DNA of 64,000 bases from Bifidobacterium pseudolongum subsp. globosum. GTDB lineage: Bacteria > Actinomycetota > Actinomycetes > Actinomycetales > Bifidobacteriaceae. Positions 9,581 to 17,643 of the stretch are shown piece by piece (the stretch's first letter is position 1; every line of letters starts with the position of its first letter). The notes under the pieces were generated by a model. It did no database searches, was not told the DNA's origin, and saw nothing but the letters and a program-made list of their open reading frames with translations. A program made the position numbers and the translations under genes. The stretch covers positions 1-64,000 of the forward strand of contig NZ_JGZG01000005.1 of NCBI RefSeq assembly GCF_000741295.1, read 5' to 3'.

Positions 9581-10415
9581 ATGGATATGCTTCAGATTCG
9601 GAATACTTACGATGATTATCGGAGCACGGAAGGTGTGGGATTGGCTCGTGTATTTCTTGCTCGGTTAGGCGCAATAGGCATGGTTGTTTGTCTTGCCTGC
9701 GGACTGCTTGCTGGGTGTGCTCCAGTGGGATGGATTCGGACAACGGCGTGGAAGGACAGCGCATTGCATCGTCCATGTCGGACCATGTGCAGTTGTTACT
9801 GGACCTGAATCAGAAGAACCTTGACGGGCAGATGGACGGTACGCCCATGAGTGAGTATCAGGTGGCCATCCTGAAACGAGCACTGGCAGCCGGGGGAAGG
9901 GTTAGCCGGGCCGACTACGAGCAGGCATGGGCGAGCTACCGTCAATGCATTGTCAACAAAGGGTATGCTTCGCCGCCGATTATGAAGGTCGGTGAGTTCT
10001 ACCAAGCACAGTGGTCAATGGCATCTGTTGAAGGGCAGGAGGCGCGGGTGGAAAACTGCGTGAGGATGACATGGCATGTGGCATATCGGAGATGCTGAAC
10101 GTGAACGAGGTATATCAACGCCAGCATTCGAATCCAGCACTGTACAGGAATCCGTCGGAGGGTGTGGTGGATTGCCTGCATCGCAACAATCTGGTGAAGG
10201 CCTCATACACTGCGAAGGAATACGATGAGGAGAACTGCAGATTCGACAAATACTGGAATGATCGCCGTATGGGACGTGCCCCCACCATCGCCGAGACGCA
10301 CGGGCATTTCAGTTTTGATTACAGCGACGTTGATGCGGCCACGTGTCTGGCGAACAATCATGAGGCCATGGATGTCCAAGAATGCAAACCGCCGGAATGG
10401 AAGCTATTCGGATAG
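9581..10415 (+). pseudogene. frameshifted lipoprotein gene
   Basis: Three consecutive open segments in three frames read like one lipoprotein. Segment one (from ATG 9581) ends in a lipobox, GLLAGCAPVG, with Cys at about residue 46. The sense then moves to another frame near 9730 (MDSDNGVEGQRIAS... to ...ARVENCVRMTWHVA) and to a third near 10078 (CGISEMLNVNEVY... to ...PPEWKLFG). The middle and last segments are polar, rich in Tyr, Asn and Cys, and have coherent codon use. Two frameshifts explain the pattern best; the second lies at a repeat of GGCATGTGGCAT-like bases. I do not recognise the family. Sequencing error or two separate small genes are other possibilities. Confidence 0.55.
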
Positions 10416-10423
10416 GGGGCGGA

Positions 10424-10468
10424 GATGGATGGCTCTCGCGATGGGAACCATCACAGAGACCATCCATC
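10424..10468. terminator. hairpin between lipoprotein pseudogene and metY
   Basis: GATGGATGG at 10424-10432 pairs with CCATCCATC at 10460-10468 around a 27-nt loop. The two flanking genes converge here, so it could serve both strands. The loop is long and there is no T-tract. Confidence 0.35.
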
Positions 10469-10481
10469 ATCCGGATAGGAG

Positions 10482-11774
10482 CTAGTTGTTGGAGGGGAGT
10501 ACGGCATCGAGCGCCTGTTTGACGTCCGCGATGATGTCCGCGGCGTTTTCGATGCCGCAGCTCAGACGCACCAGGTCGATGCCGACGCCCGCCTCTTCGA
10601 GCTGCTGTTCGGTCAGCTGGCGGTGCGTCGTGCCCGCCGGGTACAGCACACAGCTGCGCGCGTCGGCCACGTGCGTGGCGATCGAGATCATCTTGAGGTG
10701 GTCGAGGAACGCCGAGACCTTCTTGCGGCCGCCGGGCACGCCGAACGCGATCACACCGCACGTGCCGTTGGGCATGTACTTTTCGGCGAGCGCATGGTAG
10801 CGGTCATCCGGCAGGCCAGGGAAGCTGACCCACGAGATGCGCGGATCGGCCTCGAGGAACTCGGCCACGGCCAGTGCGTTCGCGCAGTGGCGCTCCATGC
10901 GCACGCCCAGGGATTCAAGGTGCATGCCCATGATCCACGAGTTGATCGGCGCCGGGGTGGAGCCGAAGTCGCGCATGAGCTGCGCGGTGGCCTTGGTGAT
11001 GAACGCGGCCTTGCCGAAGTCCTTGGCGTACACCACGCCGTGGTACGAATCGTCGGGGGTCGTCAACCCCGGGAACTTCTCGGCGTGCGCCATCCAGTCG
11101 AAGTTGCCGGAGTCCACGATCGCGCCGCCCACGCATGAGCCATGGCCGTCCATGTACTTGGTGGTGGCGTGCGTCACGATGTCCACGCCGAATTCAATCG
11201 GGCGACAGTTGATCGGCGTGGGGAACGTGTTGTCCACGATGAGCGGCACGCCGTGGCGGTGCGCGGCCTCGGCGAACTTCTCGAAGTCGAGCACGATGAG
11301 CGCGGGATTGGCGATCGATTCACCGAACACGGCCTTCGTGTTCGGCTGGAACGCCGCCTCGAGCTCCTCTTCGGAACAGTCGGGGCTCACAAAGGTGCAG
11401 GTGACGCCCATCTTGCGCATCGTCACGTTGATGAGGTTGAACGTGCCGCCGTAGATCGCGCTCGAGGCGACGATGTGGTCGCCTTCGTTGCAGATGTTGA
11501 ACAGCGCGAAGAAGTTGGCCGCCTGGCCGGACGAGGTGAGCATGGCCGCGACGCCGCCTTCCATCTCGCAGATCTTGGCGGCCACGGTGTCGTTCGTGGG
11601 GTTCTGCAGGCGCGTGTAGAAGTAACCGCTTTCGGAAAGGTCGAAGAGTCGGCTCATCTGCTCGCTCGAGGTGTATTTGAACGTCGTCGCCTGGATGATC
11701 GGCGGCGTGCGCGATTCGCCGTTGCCCGGCTGGTAGCCGCCCTGCACGCAGATGGTGTCAACATGTTCGCTCAT
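10482..11774 (-). CDS. metY: O-acetylhomoserine sulfhydrylase (aminocarboxypropyltransferase)
   Basis: A 430-residue PLP enzyme of the Cys/Met metabolism family that makes homocysteine from O-acetylhomoserine and sulfide, bypassing cystathionine. The PLP lysine is K206 in HATTKYMDGHGSCVGG. Other family hallmarks are the N-terminal DTICVQGGYQPGNGESRTPPI, YTRLQNPTNDTV and LTSSGQAANFFALFNIC. Its length (about 430, not 380-400) fits MetY rather than MetB or MetC. The ATG has GAGGAG upstream. It is monocistronic: a strong hairpin lies upstream and a weaker one downstream. I searched 11775-11889 by eye for a SAM riboswitch and found none. Confidence 0.92.
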   Translation of the reverse strand: MSEHVDTICVQGGYQPGNGESRTPPIIQATTFKYTSSEQMSRLFDLSESGYFYTRLQNPTNDTVAAKICEMEGGVAAMLTSSGQAANFFALFNICNEGDHIVASSAIYGGTFNLINVTMRKMGVTCTFVSPDCSEEELEAAFQPNTKAVFGESIANPALIVLDFEKFAEAAHRHGVPLIVDNTFPTPINCRPIEFGVDIVTHATTKYMDGHGSCVGGAIVDSGNFDWMAHAEKFPGLTTPDDSYHGVVYAKDFGKAAFITKATAQLMRDFGSTPAPINSWIMGMHLESLGVRMERHCANALAVAEFLEADPRISWVSFPGLPDDRYHALAEKYMPNGTCGVIAFGVPGGRKKVSAFLDHLKMISIATHVADARSCVLYPAGTTHRQLTEQQLEEAGVGIDLVRLSCGIENAADIIADVKQALDAVLPSNN

Positions 11775-11810
11775 GGATTCGTCTCCTCAACGGTCGGCCG
11801 CCCATGCGCG

Positions 11811-11861
11811 GGCGGCGTGGATGCCTGTGTGTGGTATTACACCACACACAGGCATGCCGCC
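11811..11861. terminator. hairpin between the metallopeptidase remnant and metY
   Basis: A 15-bp perfect stem (11821-11835 with 11841-11855, loop ATTAC) is extended by GGCGGC (11811-11816) pairing with GCCGCC (11856-11861), leaving a 4-base bulge on one side. It ends the minus-strand metallopeptidase transcript upstream of metY. Confidence 0.65.
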
Positions 11862-11889
11862 GGCGTGCATGTCCGCATAGTGCGGCGGG

Positions 11890-13101
11890 TCAGTCCGCCG
11901 AGATGCTGCAGTGGCCGTCGTGCACGAGCTGCGCGGCGGTGTCGGAGGCGTCGGTCATCGTATACCATGGCGCGTTTTGCACGCCCGAGTTCAGCACGTC
12001 GCGTTCCGCGCCGAAGTACAGGGTGGCGTAGCTGTTGGTGAGCGCCTCGTGATCCACGCGTAGTGCAGGCGCAGTGGTGCCGCAGATGCGGTAGATCATC
12101 GCGTGCGCCAGTTCGTGTTTCACGGCGTTCGGGTAGTACGATCCTGTCACGTCGTACGTCCAGTTGCGGGAGTTCTGGTTGATGTAGATGAGGTTCGGGG
12201 TGGCGGAGCAGAACGCGCCCAATGTGGTCTCGTCGGCAAGGCGCGTGGAGCCGGAGCAGTGGTCGTAGACCGACTTGAAGTCGTAGGTCGGGCTCAGCCC
12301 CACCGAGGCGATGAGCTGTTCGCCGGCGGCGAGGTAGGTGCCATCGGATCCCATCGCAATCGGTACGGCCTTGATCTTCTGCTCCCAGTCCGCGGTGAGC
12401 GTGGGGATGTCCGGCTGGGAAGACTTGAGGTCGAAGGCCCCCGTGTACAGGTCGCGCACATTGCCCTCGGAATCCCGCAGCGTGGCGTGGATGCCAAGGT
12501 CTTCGCCGTGCAGGAACTTCTGTTCCAATTCGTTGAGTGCGGTGGTCTGTGCGTTGTAATAGATGTCGATCTCGTTGGGGTCGGTTGTGGTGCGCTCGCC
12601 GGAGGCTTCGAGCTCCTGTTCGGCAGTGAGGAGGTATTTGAGCCATGCGCCGTAATACTCCACGCCCCGGTCGCTCAGTTCGGGCAGCAGCTTGATTGCG
12701 TCGTCGGGGGATTTGCTGTTGTATTCGCTGGATTTGCCCTCGAGCAACTGCTTGTATTGCGTATAGCTGTCGGCTTCGGAGAACCGGTAGACCTTCTGGT
12801 CCTTCACCGTGCCGTCGTCGTTGAGGTAGTCCTCCGGCTCGTAGCCGCGTGCGCGCAGGTCCTCGAGCGCGCTCTGGTCGTAGTCGTCCGTGTCCATCGT
12901 CTGGTGCGCCGCGCGCCCGGCCGAGGAGACGACCGTGCCGATGCCGAAGAAGACAAGGAGCAGCACCATAACGCCGGCGATGACGCCGATCACCACGGCG
13001 CCGGTGTGCTTGCGCGCCACGGTCGGCGCACCGGCGGCGCGGGGATCCATGGTGCTGGGCCCCATGGGGTAGCCTGGCCTGCTGTTCGCTCCCCATGTGG
13101 G
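11890..13101 (-). pseudogene. 3' part of IS607-interrupted membrane metallopeptidase gene
   Basis: This part holds one membrane helix (GAVVIGVIAGVMVLLLVFF, about residues 22-42 counted from the ATG at 13065) and a long extracytoplasmic domain with a zinc-protease motif HELAHAM followed by IYRICGTTAP. It resembles predicted neutral zinc metallopeptidases. The frame stays open upstream of 13065 (ANSRPGYP...) up to the left end of the IS607 element. The missing N-terminus is at 15042-15344 on the same strand; joining 15042 to 13101 restores one frame of 504 residues. The remnant could still be made from the ATG at 13065 and keep its anchor and active site, so loss of function is not certain. Confidence 0.75.
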
Positions 13102-13162
13102 GTTGTTAGCTGTTTCCTAAACGATTTGCTCTAATATATTTTAATATGCTATGCTATACTGC

Positions 13163-13750
13163 ATGTTAGTGAAGGAATGGGCTGAGCGCGAGCACCTGCA
13201 CCCGCAGACCGTGTGGAAGTGGTGCCGCACCGGAAAGATGCCCGTTCCTGTCGAACGCACGCCGTCTGGCATGTGGCTCGTTCATGACCCCAAGTACGAA
13301 ACACCCGCGCCGTCGGATGCCAAGCAGTCGCGCACCGTCTGTTATGCGCGCGTCTCGTCAGCCGACCGGAAGGCTGACTTGCAGCGTCAGACCGACCGGC
13401 TCAAGGCGTTCGCGCTCAGCATGGGCGTGGAAGCTCCCGAGGTCGTCACGGAGACCGGTTCGGGTATGAACGACAAACGGCGCAAGCTCAACCGTCTGCT
13501 GGCCGACCCGACGGTGGGCGTGATAATCGTGGAGCACCGGGACAGGCTCGCCCGCATGAACGCGGGACTGGTCGAAAGCGCCCTCAAGGCGCAAAACCGT
13601 AAACTTATCGTCGTGGATGACACGGAACTCAACGATGATTTGGTGCGGGATATGACCGAGGTGCTCACCTCGTTGTGTGCGCGCCTGTACGGACGCAGGG
13701 CTGCGAGCAACAAAGCGAAGGCCGCGTTGAAGGCGGTCGAACATGCTTGA
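13163..13750 (+). CDS. tnpA: IS607 serine recombinase TnpA
   Basis: A 195-residue transposase. The N-terminus is a MerR-like helix-turn-helix (MLVKEWAEREHLHPQTVWKW and following GKMPVP), which binds the element ends. The serine-recombinase domain follows with YARVSSADRK, where S65 or S66 is the nucleophile, DLQRQTDRL, and VEHRDRLARM. It cuts and joins at a GG dinucleotide. I prefer the ATG at 13163 because MLVKEWAERE matches family N-termini; an ATG at 13151 is also in frame. A TAATAT-type -10 at 13142-13147 lies just ahead and no Shine-Dalgarno sequence is seen. The stop overlaps the tnpB start. Confidence 0.9.
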   Translation: MLVKEWAEREHLHPQTVWKWCRTGKMPVPVERTPSGMWLVHDPKYETPAPSDAKQSRTVCYARVSSADRKADLQRQTDRLKAFALSMGVEAPEVVTETGSGMNDKRRKLNRLLADPTVGVIIVEHRDRLARMNAGLVESALKAQNRKLIVVDDTELNDDLVRDMTEVLTSLCARLYGRRAASNKAKAALKAVEHA

Positions 13751-15032
13751 GGCGGTGAAAGTGGCGCTCGACCCCACGCCACGGCAGGAGCGGTTGCTGG
13801 AGGGGCACGCGAGCGCGGCGCGCTTCGCCTATAATCTCATGCTTTCACATGTGCAGTCCCAGTTGGCGCGCGGTGAGAAGGCGGATTGGTCGATGTACGC
13901 GCAGCGGCGTTGGTGGAACGAGTGGAAAACCGAGATCGCGCCGTGGTGGGGCGAGTACAGCAAGGAGGCATACAACAGCGCGTTCGAATCATTGGCGGCC
14001 GCGTTGCGGAACTTCTTCGACGCGAAGACCGGCAGGCGCAAGGGCAGGCGCATGGGCTGGCCCAAATACCGGTCGAAGCGTCGCGGCACGCCGCGGTTCG
14101 CGTACACGACCGGATCGTTCGGCCTTGTCGAGGGCGATCCGAAACGGTTGAAACTGCCCCGCGTCGGCCGTGTGCACTGCATGGAGGATATCGCCAGGCG
14201 CGTCGGGGACGCGAAAGTGGTGCGCATGAGCGTATCCAAACGGGCGGGACGCTGGTATGCGTCGCTGACCGTCGAACGCGACACCCCGACCGCACCCGCT
14301 GCACCTAGAGGTGGCGGTGTCGGTGTGGACTTGGGCGTCAAGGCCCTCGCCGCACTCTCCGACGGCACGGTGGTGCCGAATCCTCGTCATATGAGCGGGA
14401 GCCTTCGCCGACTCGCCCATGCGCAACGCGTCCTGAGCCGACGCAGGGAAGGCTCGAACCGTTGGTGGAAAGCCAGAACCCGTGTGCAACGCATCCACGC
14501 ACGCATCGCCGATCAACGACGAGACGGGCTCGACAAACTCACGGACCGGTTGACCCGTACCTACACTGACATCGCCATCGAAGATTTGAACGTGGCCGGC
14601 ATGGTCAAGAACCACAGGCTCGCCCGAGCCGTGGCTGATTGCGGGTTCGCCGAACTGCGCCGACAGCTGGTGTACAAAAGCATGCGCACGGGCGCACGCG
14701 TCCATGTGATCAACCGTTGGTATCCATCAAGTAAGACGTGCTCGAACTGCGGGACGGTGAAAGCCAAACTGTCCCTCAATGAGCGCACGTACCATTGCGA
14801 TGCCTGCGGATTCAGGATTGACCGCGATCTGAACGCGGCCATCAACATCGAGAAGCGAATCGTCGCCCCGAGTGCCGAGGAGACATTAAACGCACGCGGA
14901 GGGGACGTAAGACACGACCGGCGTAAGCCGGCCGCGCAGACCCCGGCGAAACGTGAACCAAGCAGCCACAACAATGGCATGAGACTTGGAGCCAGCCTCG
15001 GCAACGAGACTGTGCAAACTACAACAGACTAG
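13743..15032 (+). CDS. tnpB: IS607 TnpB, RNA-guided RuvC nuclease
   Basis: A 429-residue TnpB, ancestor-type relative of Cas12. It cuts DNA next to a short element-adjacent motif using an RNA made from the element's right end. The RuvC acidic residues are visible: D196 in GVDLGVKA, E280 in IEDLNV and D362 in DRDLNAAIN. The zinc finger is C333-x2-C336 and C352-x2-C355. The N-terminal LDPTPRQERLLEGHASAARFAYN is typical. The C-terminal ETLNARGGDV tail is common to IS607/IS605 TnpB and overlaps the RNA scaffold. Nothing is truncated. It starts with an ATG overlapping the tnpA stop by 8 bp. Confidence 0.92.
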   Translation: MLEAVKVALDPTPRQERLLEGHASAARFAYNLMLSHVQSQLARGEKADWSMYAQRRWWNEWKTEIAPWWGEYSKEAYNSAFESLAAALRNFFDAKTGRRKGRRMGWPKYRSKRRGTPRFAYTTGSFGLVEGDPKRLKLPRVGRVHCMEDIARRVGDAKVVRMSVSKRAGRWYASLTVERDTPTAPAAPRGGGVGVDLGVKALAALSDGTVVPNPRHMSGSLRRLAHAQRVLSRRREGSNRWWKARTRVQRIHARIADQRRDGLDKLTDRLTRTYTDIAIEDLNVAGMVKNHRLARAVADCGFAELRRQLVYKSMRTGARVHVINRWYPSSKTCSNCGTVKAKLSLNERTYHCDACGFRIDRDLNAAINIEKRIVAPSAEETLNARGGDVRHDRRKPAAQTPAKREPSSHNNGMRLGASLGNETVQTTTD

Positions 15033-15041
15033 CTTGCAACG
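14870..15041 (+). ncRNA. putative omega RNA (reRNA) of TnpB
   Basis: In IS605/IS607 elements the guide RNA scaffold overlaps the 3' end of tnpB and ends at the element's right border, with the guide read from the flank. The tnpB stop at 15030-15032 is only about 9 bp before the border, so the scaffold must lie in the coding tail. A hairpin CCGGC-GTAA-GCCGG (14919-14932) with a GNRA-type loop is seen there. The 5' limit is a guess. The guide would begin at 15042. Confidence 0.4.
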
Positions 15042-15344
15042 GTACGGCGTGGTCTGGTATGGGGTGCCGGAGGTGAACGGATTGTGTGCGCGGGGATGCG
15101 CGCCTGGCATCGTGCCGATGGCTGGCGCGGGGTAGACCGGCGTGTGGGGAGAGTGTGGTGACCTTTGTGGTGGGGCCCCGTACGGCGTTGTGTCGGGTGT
15201 TTGCGCGGCGGGTGTCTGCGCAGTGGGGCCTGTGGGGAAGGCGACCGGCGTCGGGCCGGGATGCGGCTGCTGCGTCGGTTGGGGTGCTTGCGGTCGTGCA
15301 TGCTGCTGGTACCGGTGTGGTGAGTTGGTGTTTGGCCCGCTCAT
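15042..15344 (-). pseudogene. 5' part of the interrupted metallopeptidase gene
   Basis: The first 101 codons of the gene whose remainder lies at 11890-13101. The ATG at 15342-15344 has a strong AAGGGGG ribosome site. The encoded segment is rich in Pro, Gln, Thr and Tyr (MSGPNTNSPHRYQQH... to ...SGTPYQTTPY), a cytoplasmic low-complexity leader like those on many actinobacterial single-pass proteins. Reading through the insertion would add Arg-Cys-Lys and run antisense through the tnpB tail. With the element removed, TPY is followed directly by PTWGANSRPGYP, the same composition and the same frame. Confidence 0.75.
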
Positions 15345-15568
15345 CAATCCCCCTTGCTTGTGGTCGGCCGTTCGGCCATGGGCGTGCTCGGCGATGTGGG
15401 CCACATCGTAACAAAACCGGACTGCGGGGTTGTGTGCTTGTTCACGTTTTCCACCGCTTTCAGCGATGCGCGTAGCGCCGCCGGACGCGGCGCGGAGGGC
15501 GGGCGGTAGTGTGAACAGTAGCGGTGCGGGCCATCCACGCCTCGCGCCAACCCGGACAGGAGTGATCA

Positions 15569-16093
15569 ATGAAGACATCGGTGATGGTGTTCCATCCGAA
15601 CATCGCGCGCTCGCGCATCAACGCGGCGCTCATGGAGCGCGCGCAGAACGAACCGGAGCTCGACCTGGTGGTGCGTGACATGTATGCGCTGTACCCGGAT
15701 TTCCATATCAATGTGGAAGAGGAGCAACGTGTGGCCGATGGCGCGGACCGCCTGGTGTTCCAGTTCCCGTTCTACTGGTACAGCGCGCCCGCGCTGATGA
15801 AGCAGTGGGAGGATGAGGTGCTCAGCTCCGGTTGGGCATATGGGCCGGACGCGCGCATCGCCGGCAAGCGCATGATGCTCGCGGTCAGCACCGGTGGCCT
15901 CAAAGACACCTATTCGGTCGAGGGCAAGCACCACGCCGCCATGAGCGAACTGCTGCTGCCGTACCGCATCATGGCGCAGTATCTGGGTCTGGAGTTCGAG
16001 GAACCGTTCATTGTGCACGGCGCCTATGCGCCCGACCTCGACGACGGCGCGCTCGCCGCCGTGGCACAGGAGTACGTGGCCCGCCTGCACTAG
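15569..16093 (+). CDS. NAD(P)H-dependent oxidoreductase, flavodoxin fold (KefF/MdaB type)
   Basis: A 174-residue FMN/FAD quinone reductase of the flavodoxin-2 family. It starts with the flavin-phosphate strand MKTSVMVFHPNIARSRINAAL, followed by VVRDMYALYPDF, the conserved FQFPFYWYSAPALMKQWEDEV and a Gly-rich AVSTGGLKDTYSVEG. These match KefF and MdaB proteins, which reduce quinones or protect potassium efflux systems; the substrate here cannot be told. The ATG is preceded by AGGAGTGATCA. The gene reads away from the interrupted metallopeptidase gene, so 15345-15568 (224 bp) must hold both promoters; I see no clear hexamers there. Confidence 0.8.
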   Translation: MKTSVMVFHPNIARSRINAALMERAQNEPELDLVVRDMYALYPDFHINVEEEQRVADGADRLVFQFPFYWYSAPALMKQWEDEVLSSGWAYGPDARIAGKRMMLAVSTGGLKDTYSVEGKHHAAMSELLLPYRIMAQYLGLEFEEPFIVHGAYAPDLDDGALAAVAQEYVARLH

Positions 16094-16188
16094 CAATCCG
16101 TGCCGTGCGCATATGGAATGATTGCGCCTGGCATGCCACAATGGCCGTAAAACCCAATCATTGCAACGCGACACGCCATTGACGGTTT

Positions 16189-16257
16189 TATAGTTAGACG
16201 ATTTGACAAAGCGCCTATGCGTCGTTTACACTCTCTTTGTAAGACGAATGAACAATA
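16189..16257 (+). promoter_or_regulatory. xylA promoter with two ROK-type operator candidates
   Basis: A -35 TTGACA (16203-16208) and -10 TACACT (16227-16232) are 18 bp apart. Site A, TATAGTTAGACGA at 16189-16201, touches the -35; site B, GTAAGACGAATGAACAATA at 16239-16257, lies just after the -10. Both resemble the palindrome between xylB and the ROK gene (TATAGTTAGATGAATAAAC). Repression by the ROK protein is an inference. Confidence 0.6.
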
Positions 16258-16293
16258 GTTCGTCACAACGCACGATCAACAAAGGAGTGATCC

Positions 16294-17643
16294 ATGGGAC
16301 TGTGGGATATCGACAAGATCGAGTACGTCGGCCGCGGCAACGGCCCGGTCGAGGGGCTCGGCTTCCAGTATTATGACGCCGACAAAGTGGTCGCCGGCAA
16401 GAAGATGAAGGACTGGCTGCGCTTCGGTGTGGCATGGTGGCACACCTTCGACGCGCCGCTCACCGACCCCTTCGGCGATGGCACCGCCCAGCGCCCGTGG
16501 GACGGCAAGTACTCCGACCCGATGGACAACGCGCTCGCCAAGGTGGACTACGCGTTCGAGTTCTTCACCAAGCTCGGCGCCGAGTACTTCTGCTTCCATG
16601 ACCGCGACATCGCCCCGGAAGGCGATACGCTGCGCGAGACGAACGCCAACCTCGACCGCGTGGTCGACAAGATCGAAGAGAACATGCAGTCCACCGGCGT
16701 GAAGCTGCTGTGGAACACCTCGTCGCTCTTCACCAACCCGCGCTTCGTGGCGGGCGCCTCCACCTCGCCGTTCGCCGACGTCTACGCCTATGCCGCGGCG
16801 CAGCTCAAGCACTCCCTCGAGATCGGCAAGCGCCTGGGCGCCGAGAACTACGTGTTCTGGGGCGGCCGCGAAGGCTACGAGAACCTGTGGGTCACCGACA
16901 TGAAGCGTGAGCAGGAGCACATGGCGAAGTTCTTCCACATGTGCGCCGACTACGCCAAGCAGATCGGCATGGACGCCCAGTTCCTCATCGAGCCGAAGGC
17001 CAAGGAACCGACGACGCACCAGTACGACTTCGACGCGGCCACGGCATGCAATTTCCTGCGCGCCTATGACCTGATCGACGTCTTCAAGCTCAACCTCGAA
17101 GGCAACCACGCCAACCTCGCAGGCCACACCTACCAGCACGAGATTCGCGTCGCCCGCGACAACGGCGTGCTCGGTTCGCTCGACGCCAACCAGGGCGACA
17201 TGCTGCTCGGCTGGGACCTCGATGAGTTCCCGACCAACCTGTACGAGACCACCTCCGTGATGTGGGAAGTGCTCGACGAAGGTCAGATCGGCCCTCACGG
17301 CGGCCTCAACTTCGACGCCAAGCCGCGCCGCACCTCGTTCAGCGCCGAAGACCTGTTCCGCGCGCACATCGCCGGCATGGACACGTTCGCCGCCGGCCTG
17401 CTCGTGGCGGACAAGATGCATCAGGACAAGTACATCGAGGACCTTGTGGCCAACCGTTACGGCTCCTACGATTCGGGCATCGGCAAGTCGATCGACGACG
17501 GCACCGCCACCCTCGAGTCGCTCAATGACTACGCCATCGACATGCCGCAGTCCGAGATCATCGCATCCACGCACCCCGATCACCTCGAGGACGTGAAGGC
17601 GACCATCAACAACTACATCATCGACGCCCTGGCCAACGCCTGA
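16294..17643 (+). CDS. xylA: xylose isomerase
   Basis: Converts D-xylose to D-xylulose in the cytoplasm, the first step of xylose use. The 449-residue length fits class II enzymes. Active-site stretches seen are [14 protein letters not shown] (catalytic His and metal shell), [28 protein letters not shown] and [17 protein letters not shown]. The ATG has AAAGGAG upstream. It is monocistronic, with its own promoter and a hairpin after the stop, yet opens a locus of GH43 xylosidases, an oligosaccharide importer and xylB. Bifidobacteria feed xylulose 5-phosphate into phosphoketolase, so this gene links AXOS use to the bifid shunt. Confidence 0.97.

Follow-up and report, generated by a model that had tools for sequence, protein, structure and literature searches.

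An IS607-family element splits the gene for a peptidase-like membrane protein in Bifidobacterium pseudolongum subsp. globosum

We analysed a stretch of 64,000 nucleotides, called the window here, from Bifidobacterium pseudolongum subsp. globosum (contig NZ_JGZG01000005.1, positions 1 to 64,000). Between positions 11890 and 15344, an insertion element of the IS607 family lies inside a gene on the minus strand. This host gene appears, from its sequence, to encode a membrane-anchored, HExxH-containing, peptidase-like protein. Its 5' piece (15042..15344, minus strand) comprises 101 codons and contains the start codon, with a Shine-Dalgarno-like AAGGGGG upstream of the ATG, and a proline-rich leader. 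Its 3' piece (11890..13101, minus strand) encodes the end of the leader, a transmembrane stretch and a peptidase-like domain with the motif HELAH and the residue Glu340. Without most of the leader, an open reading frame of 391 amino acids can be read in the 3' piece from an internal ATG with a weak Shine-Dalgarno sequence (11890..13065, minus strand), and HELAH occupies residues 317-321 of this frame. The 5' piece reads on into the element, and its predicted product is a chimera of 101 leader residues and 51 element-read residues, followed by a stop (14886..15344, minus strand).

The element spans 13102..15041 on the plus strand (1,940 bp) and has no target duplication beyond a shared GG. Its first gene, tnpA (13163..13750, plus strand), encodes an IS607-type serine recombinase of 195 amino acids, or 199 if read from the ATG at 13151. 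TnpA matches the IS607 transposase model NF033518 over positions 1-187 of 187 with 199.4 bits (cut-off 110). It has a Pfam Resolvase domain at residues 59-190, behind an N-terminal segment, and an RVSS at 63-66 that we take to be the candidate catalytic serine motif. The second gene, tnpB (13743..15032, plus strand), overlaps the first and encodes an IS607-type RNA-guided nuclease of 429 amino acids that scores 398.7 bits with the IS607 TnpB model NF038280 (cut-off 350). TnpB contains two CxxC pairs and the motifs DLG (196), IAIED (277) and DRDLNA (360), which presumably supply the RuvC D-E-D residues. Near the right end of the element, at 14948..15016 on the plus strand, lies a match to the Rfam family RF03015, Transposase-2 RNA (73.2 bits; gathering score 42.7). 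Because of its place, we presume that this RNA is the scaffold of a right-end RNA (reRNA, or omega-RNA). In three sibling copies in the window's own genome, the same family is likewise found close to the right end. The presumed guide segment of the reRNA, positioned relative to the right end, would be read from the flank at 15043..15062 (plus strand); we guess its length, about 20, from published systems. An earlier note, made from the letters of this DNA alone, had named the element IS607; both protein models, over their cut-offs, and the Transposase-2 RNA support that identity.

When 13102-15041 is removed, the minus-strand segments 15042-15344 and 11890-13101 join into 1,515 bases, which form one open reading frame of 504 residues ending in a stop. 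Translation runs across the join as ...TPYQTTPY/PTWGANSRPGYP... Both borders lie in runs of G. On the left, the GG crossover dinucleotide (13101..13102) sits inside GGGG at 13099-13102, in which we presume that GGG doubles as the target-adjacent motif (TAM) of TnpB; on the right it is the GG at 15041..15042. Three placements of the insert (13101-15040, 13102-15041 and 13103-15042) are equivalent and give an identical join. Thus, the border is fixed only to within the shared GG. On the plus strand, the G-rich insertion site is ATGTGGGGTACGG, and it falls between codons 101 and 102 of the 504-codon gene. The in-frame join, the GG borders and the HExxH motif had all been reported in the earlier note, and each was confirmed. 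Frames, borders and gene content are thus directly visible in the window.

The empty site can be seen just as directly in a relative. We searched the joined protein against 112 genomes of the genus, its own genome included, and found matches in 29. Outside its own genome, the best match lies at G062:C23:24424-25938; it is free of stops and 98% identical to the joined protein over residues 1-504. The DNA of this G062 match is identical to part of NZ_RYUH01000009.1 (L038), a record of Bifidobacterium pseudolongum subsp. globosum strain 2093B. It reads through the join without a gap, and the letters adjoining the join are identical on both sides. Among the 311 bases compared around the join, the sole gap is a 3-base in-frame difference about 140 bases away. 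The unbroken gene has the same ATG and 505 codons, the extra codon being one leucine in the predicted transmembrane stretch, and over 6.5 kb the flank in the window is 96.5% identical to that of G062 at the DNA level. The earlier note had proposed looking for just such an orthologue, unbroken, about 504 residues long and complete to the base at the join. That note had also placed the window near B. animalis, a label that found no support: the only named relative recovered was B. pseudolongum subsp. globosum at the identity just given, which shifts the species label in the direction of B. pseudolongum. We take B. animalis to be more distant from the window; no record under the name B. animalis was among those compared.

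If the leader and the peptidase part had always been separate genes, the in-frame join would be a coincidence. The 391-amino-acid frame does have its own ATG, and one homologue (L031, 383 amino acids) starts directly before the transmembrane stretch. However, the unbroken G062/L038 orthologue is a single gene whose frame runs straight through the join, and, by eye, a leader rich in P, Q and Y is fused to the peptidase part in nine of the 13 homologues of an alignment, A1, described below. The G062/L038 orthologue rules out separate ancestral genes, the outcome that the earlier note had said would refute its reading, and we give this idea essentially no credence.

Sibling copies in the same genome tell us more about how such elements are placed. 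The window's own genome holds six IS607 TnpA genes over the cut-off, and such a gene occurs in 25 of the 112 genomes of the genus. The sibling copies close to the window element are 78-81% identical to it in DNA; for the matches listed from other species in the genus, the identity is 68-83%. At three further sites, named A, B and C, the flanks of sibling copies meet without an element in G061 (the next relative) or G062. At site C, G061 has the same junction letter for letter; at site B, neither G061 nor G062 differs in length, and one or two bases adjoining the junction are substituted. Empty sites are therefore exact in length at two of the three sibling sites.

The left borders follow a simple rule. 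All four borders in the window's own genome and all 15 read by eye in other genomes of the genus (L089-L103, placed by homology, without empty sites) fall on GGG, which makes 19 of 19. The adjoining letters are GAGGG at sites A and B, TGGGG in the window and GGGGG at site C. GGG at these borders agrees with published descriptions: PMC6188088 describes IS607 insertions that lie in GG, preferably (G)GG, and cause no duplication, and PMC10711439 reports for the TnpB of ISXfa1 a GGG TAM and a right-flanking nucleotide inside the scaffold. For another group of IS607 TnpB proteins, PMC11061315 gives AGGAG in 18 of 22 strains and GAGGG in four of 22.

The sibling copies also show rearrangements. Three of them have flanks that are exchanged relative to G061 and G062 (L069, G000:C2; L070, G000:C14; L071, G000:C1; L074, G000:C15), with the left flank on C1 belonging with the right flank on C2, C14-left with C1-right and C2-left with C15-right. 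Behind these exchanges lies either recombination among the copies or misjoining of the draft assembly at exact shared runs of up to 360 bases. At site B (G000:C14/C1; L070, L071), a sibling copy splits a second gene at residue 122 of a 183-residue stop-to-stop frame that resembles a coiled-coil membrane protein. Two more IS607 elements (L072, G000:C4:64879-65430; L073, G000:C5:239996-240541) belong to a distant subfamily, with a TnpA about 30% identical to that of the window.

Such exchanges raise the possibility that the window element, too, was misjoined into its place during assembly, since other copies in the same draft have exchanged flanks and exact shared runs of that length. In the window, however, both flanks correspond to one uninterrupted place in G062, and no exact run of more than 73 bases is common to the element and any of the four other copies or fragments with which it was compared. 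A misjoin at this site is unlikely, and we give it only very slight weight.

We therefore return to insertion, and conclude with high confidence that an IS607-family transposon entered by a GG-to-GG exchange, with no host bases lost or duplicated, and split the peptidase-like gene. The orthologues in both G062 and G061 lack the element, so an insertion in the lineage of the window is the simplest order of events, and this is the direction that we infer. Several points weigh against this conclusion or restrict it. Precise excision would give the same empty site, and sequence alone cannot prove direction. One genome per species was compared, so that the insertion may be fixed or private to one isolate. 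Site A is inexact, as the junction in G062 is short of one G and a further single-base difference lies close by; the flanks there are only 82-85% identical, and thus a lost or gained base is indistinguishable from ordinary divergence. The TGGGG at the window border differs from the GAGGG TAM given for four of 22 strains in PMC11061315, though its GGG fits ISXfa1. Finally, sibling copies in this draft genome do have exchanged flanks, although the window copy does not.

What does the host gene encode? We found 28 homologous loci without using the motif, scanning both strands, and 22 of them have HExxH followed by a conserved glutamate. Five loci (L012, L016, L025, L035 and L036) lie outside the HExxH...E pattern, and the G061 locus (L010) has HGLAH instead of HELAH. 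Alignment A1 contains 13 homologues taken from the 14 of 28 loci in which a scan confined to the plus strand picked up HExxH; L029 was left out because its N-terminal part looked out of frame. In the 14 rows of A1, Glu340 and four cysteines are invariant, as is HExxH...E, the motif by which A1 was chosen. The conserved glutamate lies 19 residues past the second histidine of HELAH, and one membrane stretch is predicted. Taken together, A1 and loci L008-L036 depict HExxH membrane proteins with a patchy distribution among bifidobacteria; most have a proline-rich leader, and cysteines and the glutamate are conserved. A profile search across the bacterial family matched 48 of 189 genomes at E-values up to 1e-5, the weakest matches covering only the leader and membrane part.

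The name 'metallopeptidase', used in the earlier note, stands in part. The HExxH and the conserved glutamate downstream are there, and we presume that the class term 'gluzincin-like' applies; the enzymatic name itself interprets these residues, as Pfam, NCBIfam and PDB searches with the host protein gave no credible family; three of the searches produced scattered weak matches, with E-values no better than 0.012, 0.55 and 0.0011, of which the 0.0011 was obtained with a single member. An AlphaFold2 model built from two sequences had a mean predicted local distance difference test score of 39.9 and was unusable. Here we use 'peptidase-like'.

The insertion leaves the start codon, the ribosome-binding site and the leader on one side and the sequence for the transmembrane and catalytic regions on the other. 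Thus, we infer that the split gene has most likely lost its function or that, at best, a leaderless protein is still made from it. Splicing does not offer a way out: among the six Rfam matches in 10000-17000 (E-values up to 1) there was no group I intron, and we rule out rescue by such an intron or otherwise because no such family is present in that interval.

It is possible that the insertion trims the protein rather than killing it, and that the 391-amino-acid remnant is made from the ATG at 13065 as a working, leaderless membrane peptidase. The transmembrane stretch, HELAH, Glu340 and the four invariant cysteines are all intact, so the 3' piece may persist without the leader, and the homologue L031 has no leader at all. 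With G061 as outgroup, the changes in the 3' piece assigned to the window lineage are five synonymous ones, no amino-acid substitution and one in-frame deletion of a leucine codon; five other differences were assigned to G062, and two, both synonymous, could be assigned to neither lineage. Pairwise against G062, nonsynonymous and synonymous divergence (dN/dS) is 0.0033/0.032 in the 3' piece and 0.037/0.026 in the 5' piece. In the latter, 10 codons differ, and nine of the 10 were assignable to no lineage because the outgroup leader aligns poorly.

This lack of decay in the 3' piece is explained equally by a recent insertion or by retained function, and much of the divergence may predate the insertion. 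The internal ATG has only a weak Shine-Dalgarno sequence, whereas the native start has a good one, AAGGGGG. A scan of 12900-15600 found no sigma-70-like promoter; as only 0.2 are expected by chance, this is little informative. Additionally, the gene can be lost. The G061 orthologue (L010, G061:C12, about 1327-2709) has frameshifts from two indels, stops within the frame and HGLAH for HELAH, so that the host gene was independently broken there and seems dispensable. On balance, we regard a working remnant as unlikely, though worth keeping in mind. We think it less probable again that an uncatalogued bifidobacterial family of membrane HExxH peptidases has been repeatedly lost or trimmed, with IS607 leaving a working leaderless enzyme here. 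If this were true, the proline-rich leader would be a dispensable regulatory tail.

A second feature lies downstream of the split gene. At 11797-11877 in the window, a long, near-perfect hairpin occupies the space before the next gene, which we take to encode an O-acetylhomoserine-type sulfhydrylase. The hairpin is kept in G062 and also in G061, where a change in one arm is matched by a change in the other. It is perhaps a terminator or a leader element. Matches to Rfam miRNA families at the hairpin were below the cut-off and were taken as chance.

Based on these observations and by analogy with published systems, we propose a model for how the element came to lie in this gene and might stay there. 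An IS607 element carrying TnpA, TnpB and the reRNA would have entered the G-rich site ATGTGGGGTACGG by a GG-to-GG strand exchange. TnpB would then take its guide from the flanking sequence at about 15043. As a consequence, the empty site, in which GGG precedes that guide sequence, would be expected to become a TnpB target. A chromosome that loses the element might thus be cut by TnpB and repaired from a copy still holding the element.

In kind, the finding is ordinary: IS607 has entered, without leaving a scar, a gene that is dispensable in close relatives. Judging by titles and abstract openings, no treatment of this locus is apparent among the listed papers that contain both IS607 and Bifidobacterium. 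We believe that the locus is useful in three respects. First, it is a clean case, exact to the base, of IS607 inserting without a scar in a genus of gut commensals. Second, the unbroken and empty sites that relatives have for this copy and three siblings, together with the GGG left borders, offer a convenient natural test of whether TnpB protects its element by cutting the element's own empty site. Third, it points to an uncatalogued membrane HExxH protein of bifidobacteria, the gene for which is disrupted differently in each of two close relatives.

Several known systems resemble parts of this arrangement. The host protein is like HExxH...E membrane metallopeptidases in its HELAH, in the glutamate 19 residues on and in its one predicted membrane stretch; it differs in having no credible Pfam, NCBIfam or PDB family, and the likeness is one of primary structure. 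IStrons, which combine an insertion element with a group I intron, also place transposition genes inside a host gene (PMC4227781). The window element differs from them in matching no group I intron, and no rescue by splicing is expected. With the TnpB-reRNA system of ISXfa1, another IS607 element, described in PMC10711439, the window element shares the GGG by the left end, the fixed G at the right flank and the RNA scaffold at the right end, whereas its activity, TAM and guide are predicted from its letters. There is also the likeness to the IS607 family as a whole. The window element has the two overlapping genes, both over the cut-offs of NF033518 and NF038280, the GG target without target duplication and the precise empty site, and differs from the family in nothing of substance.

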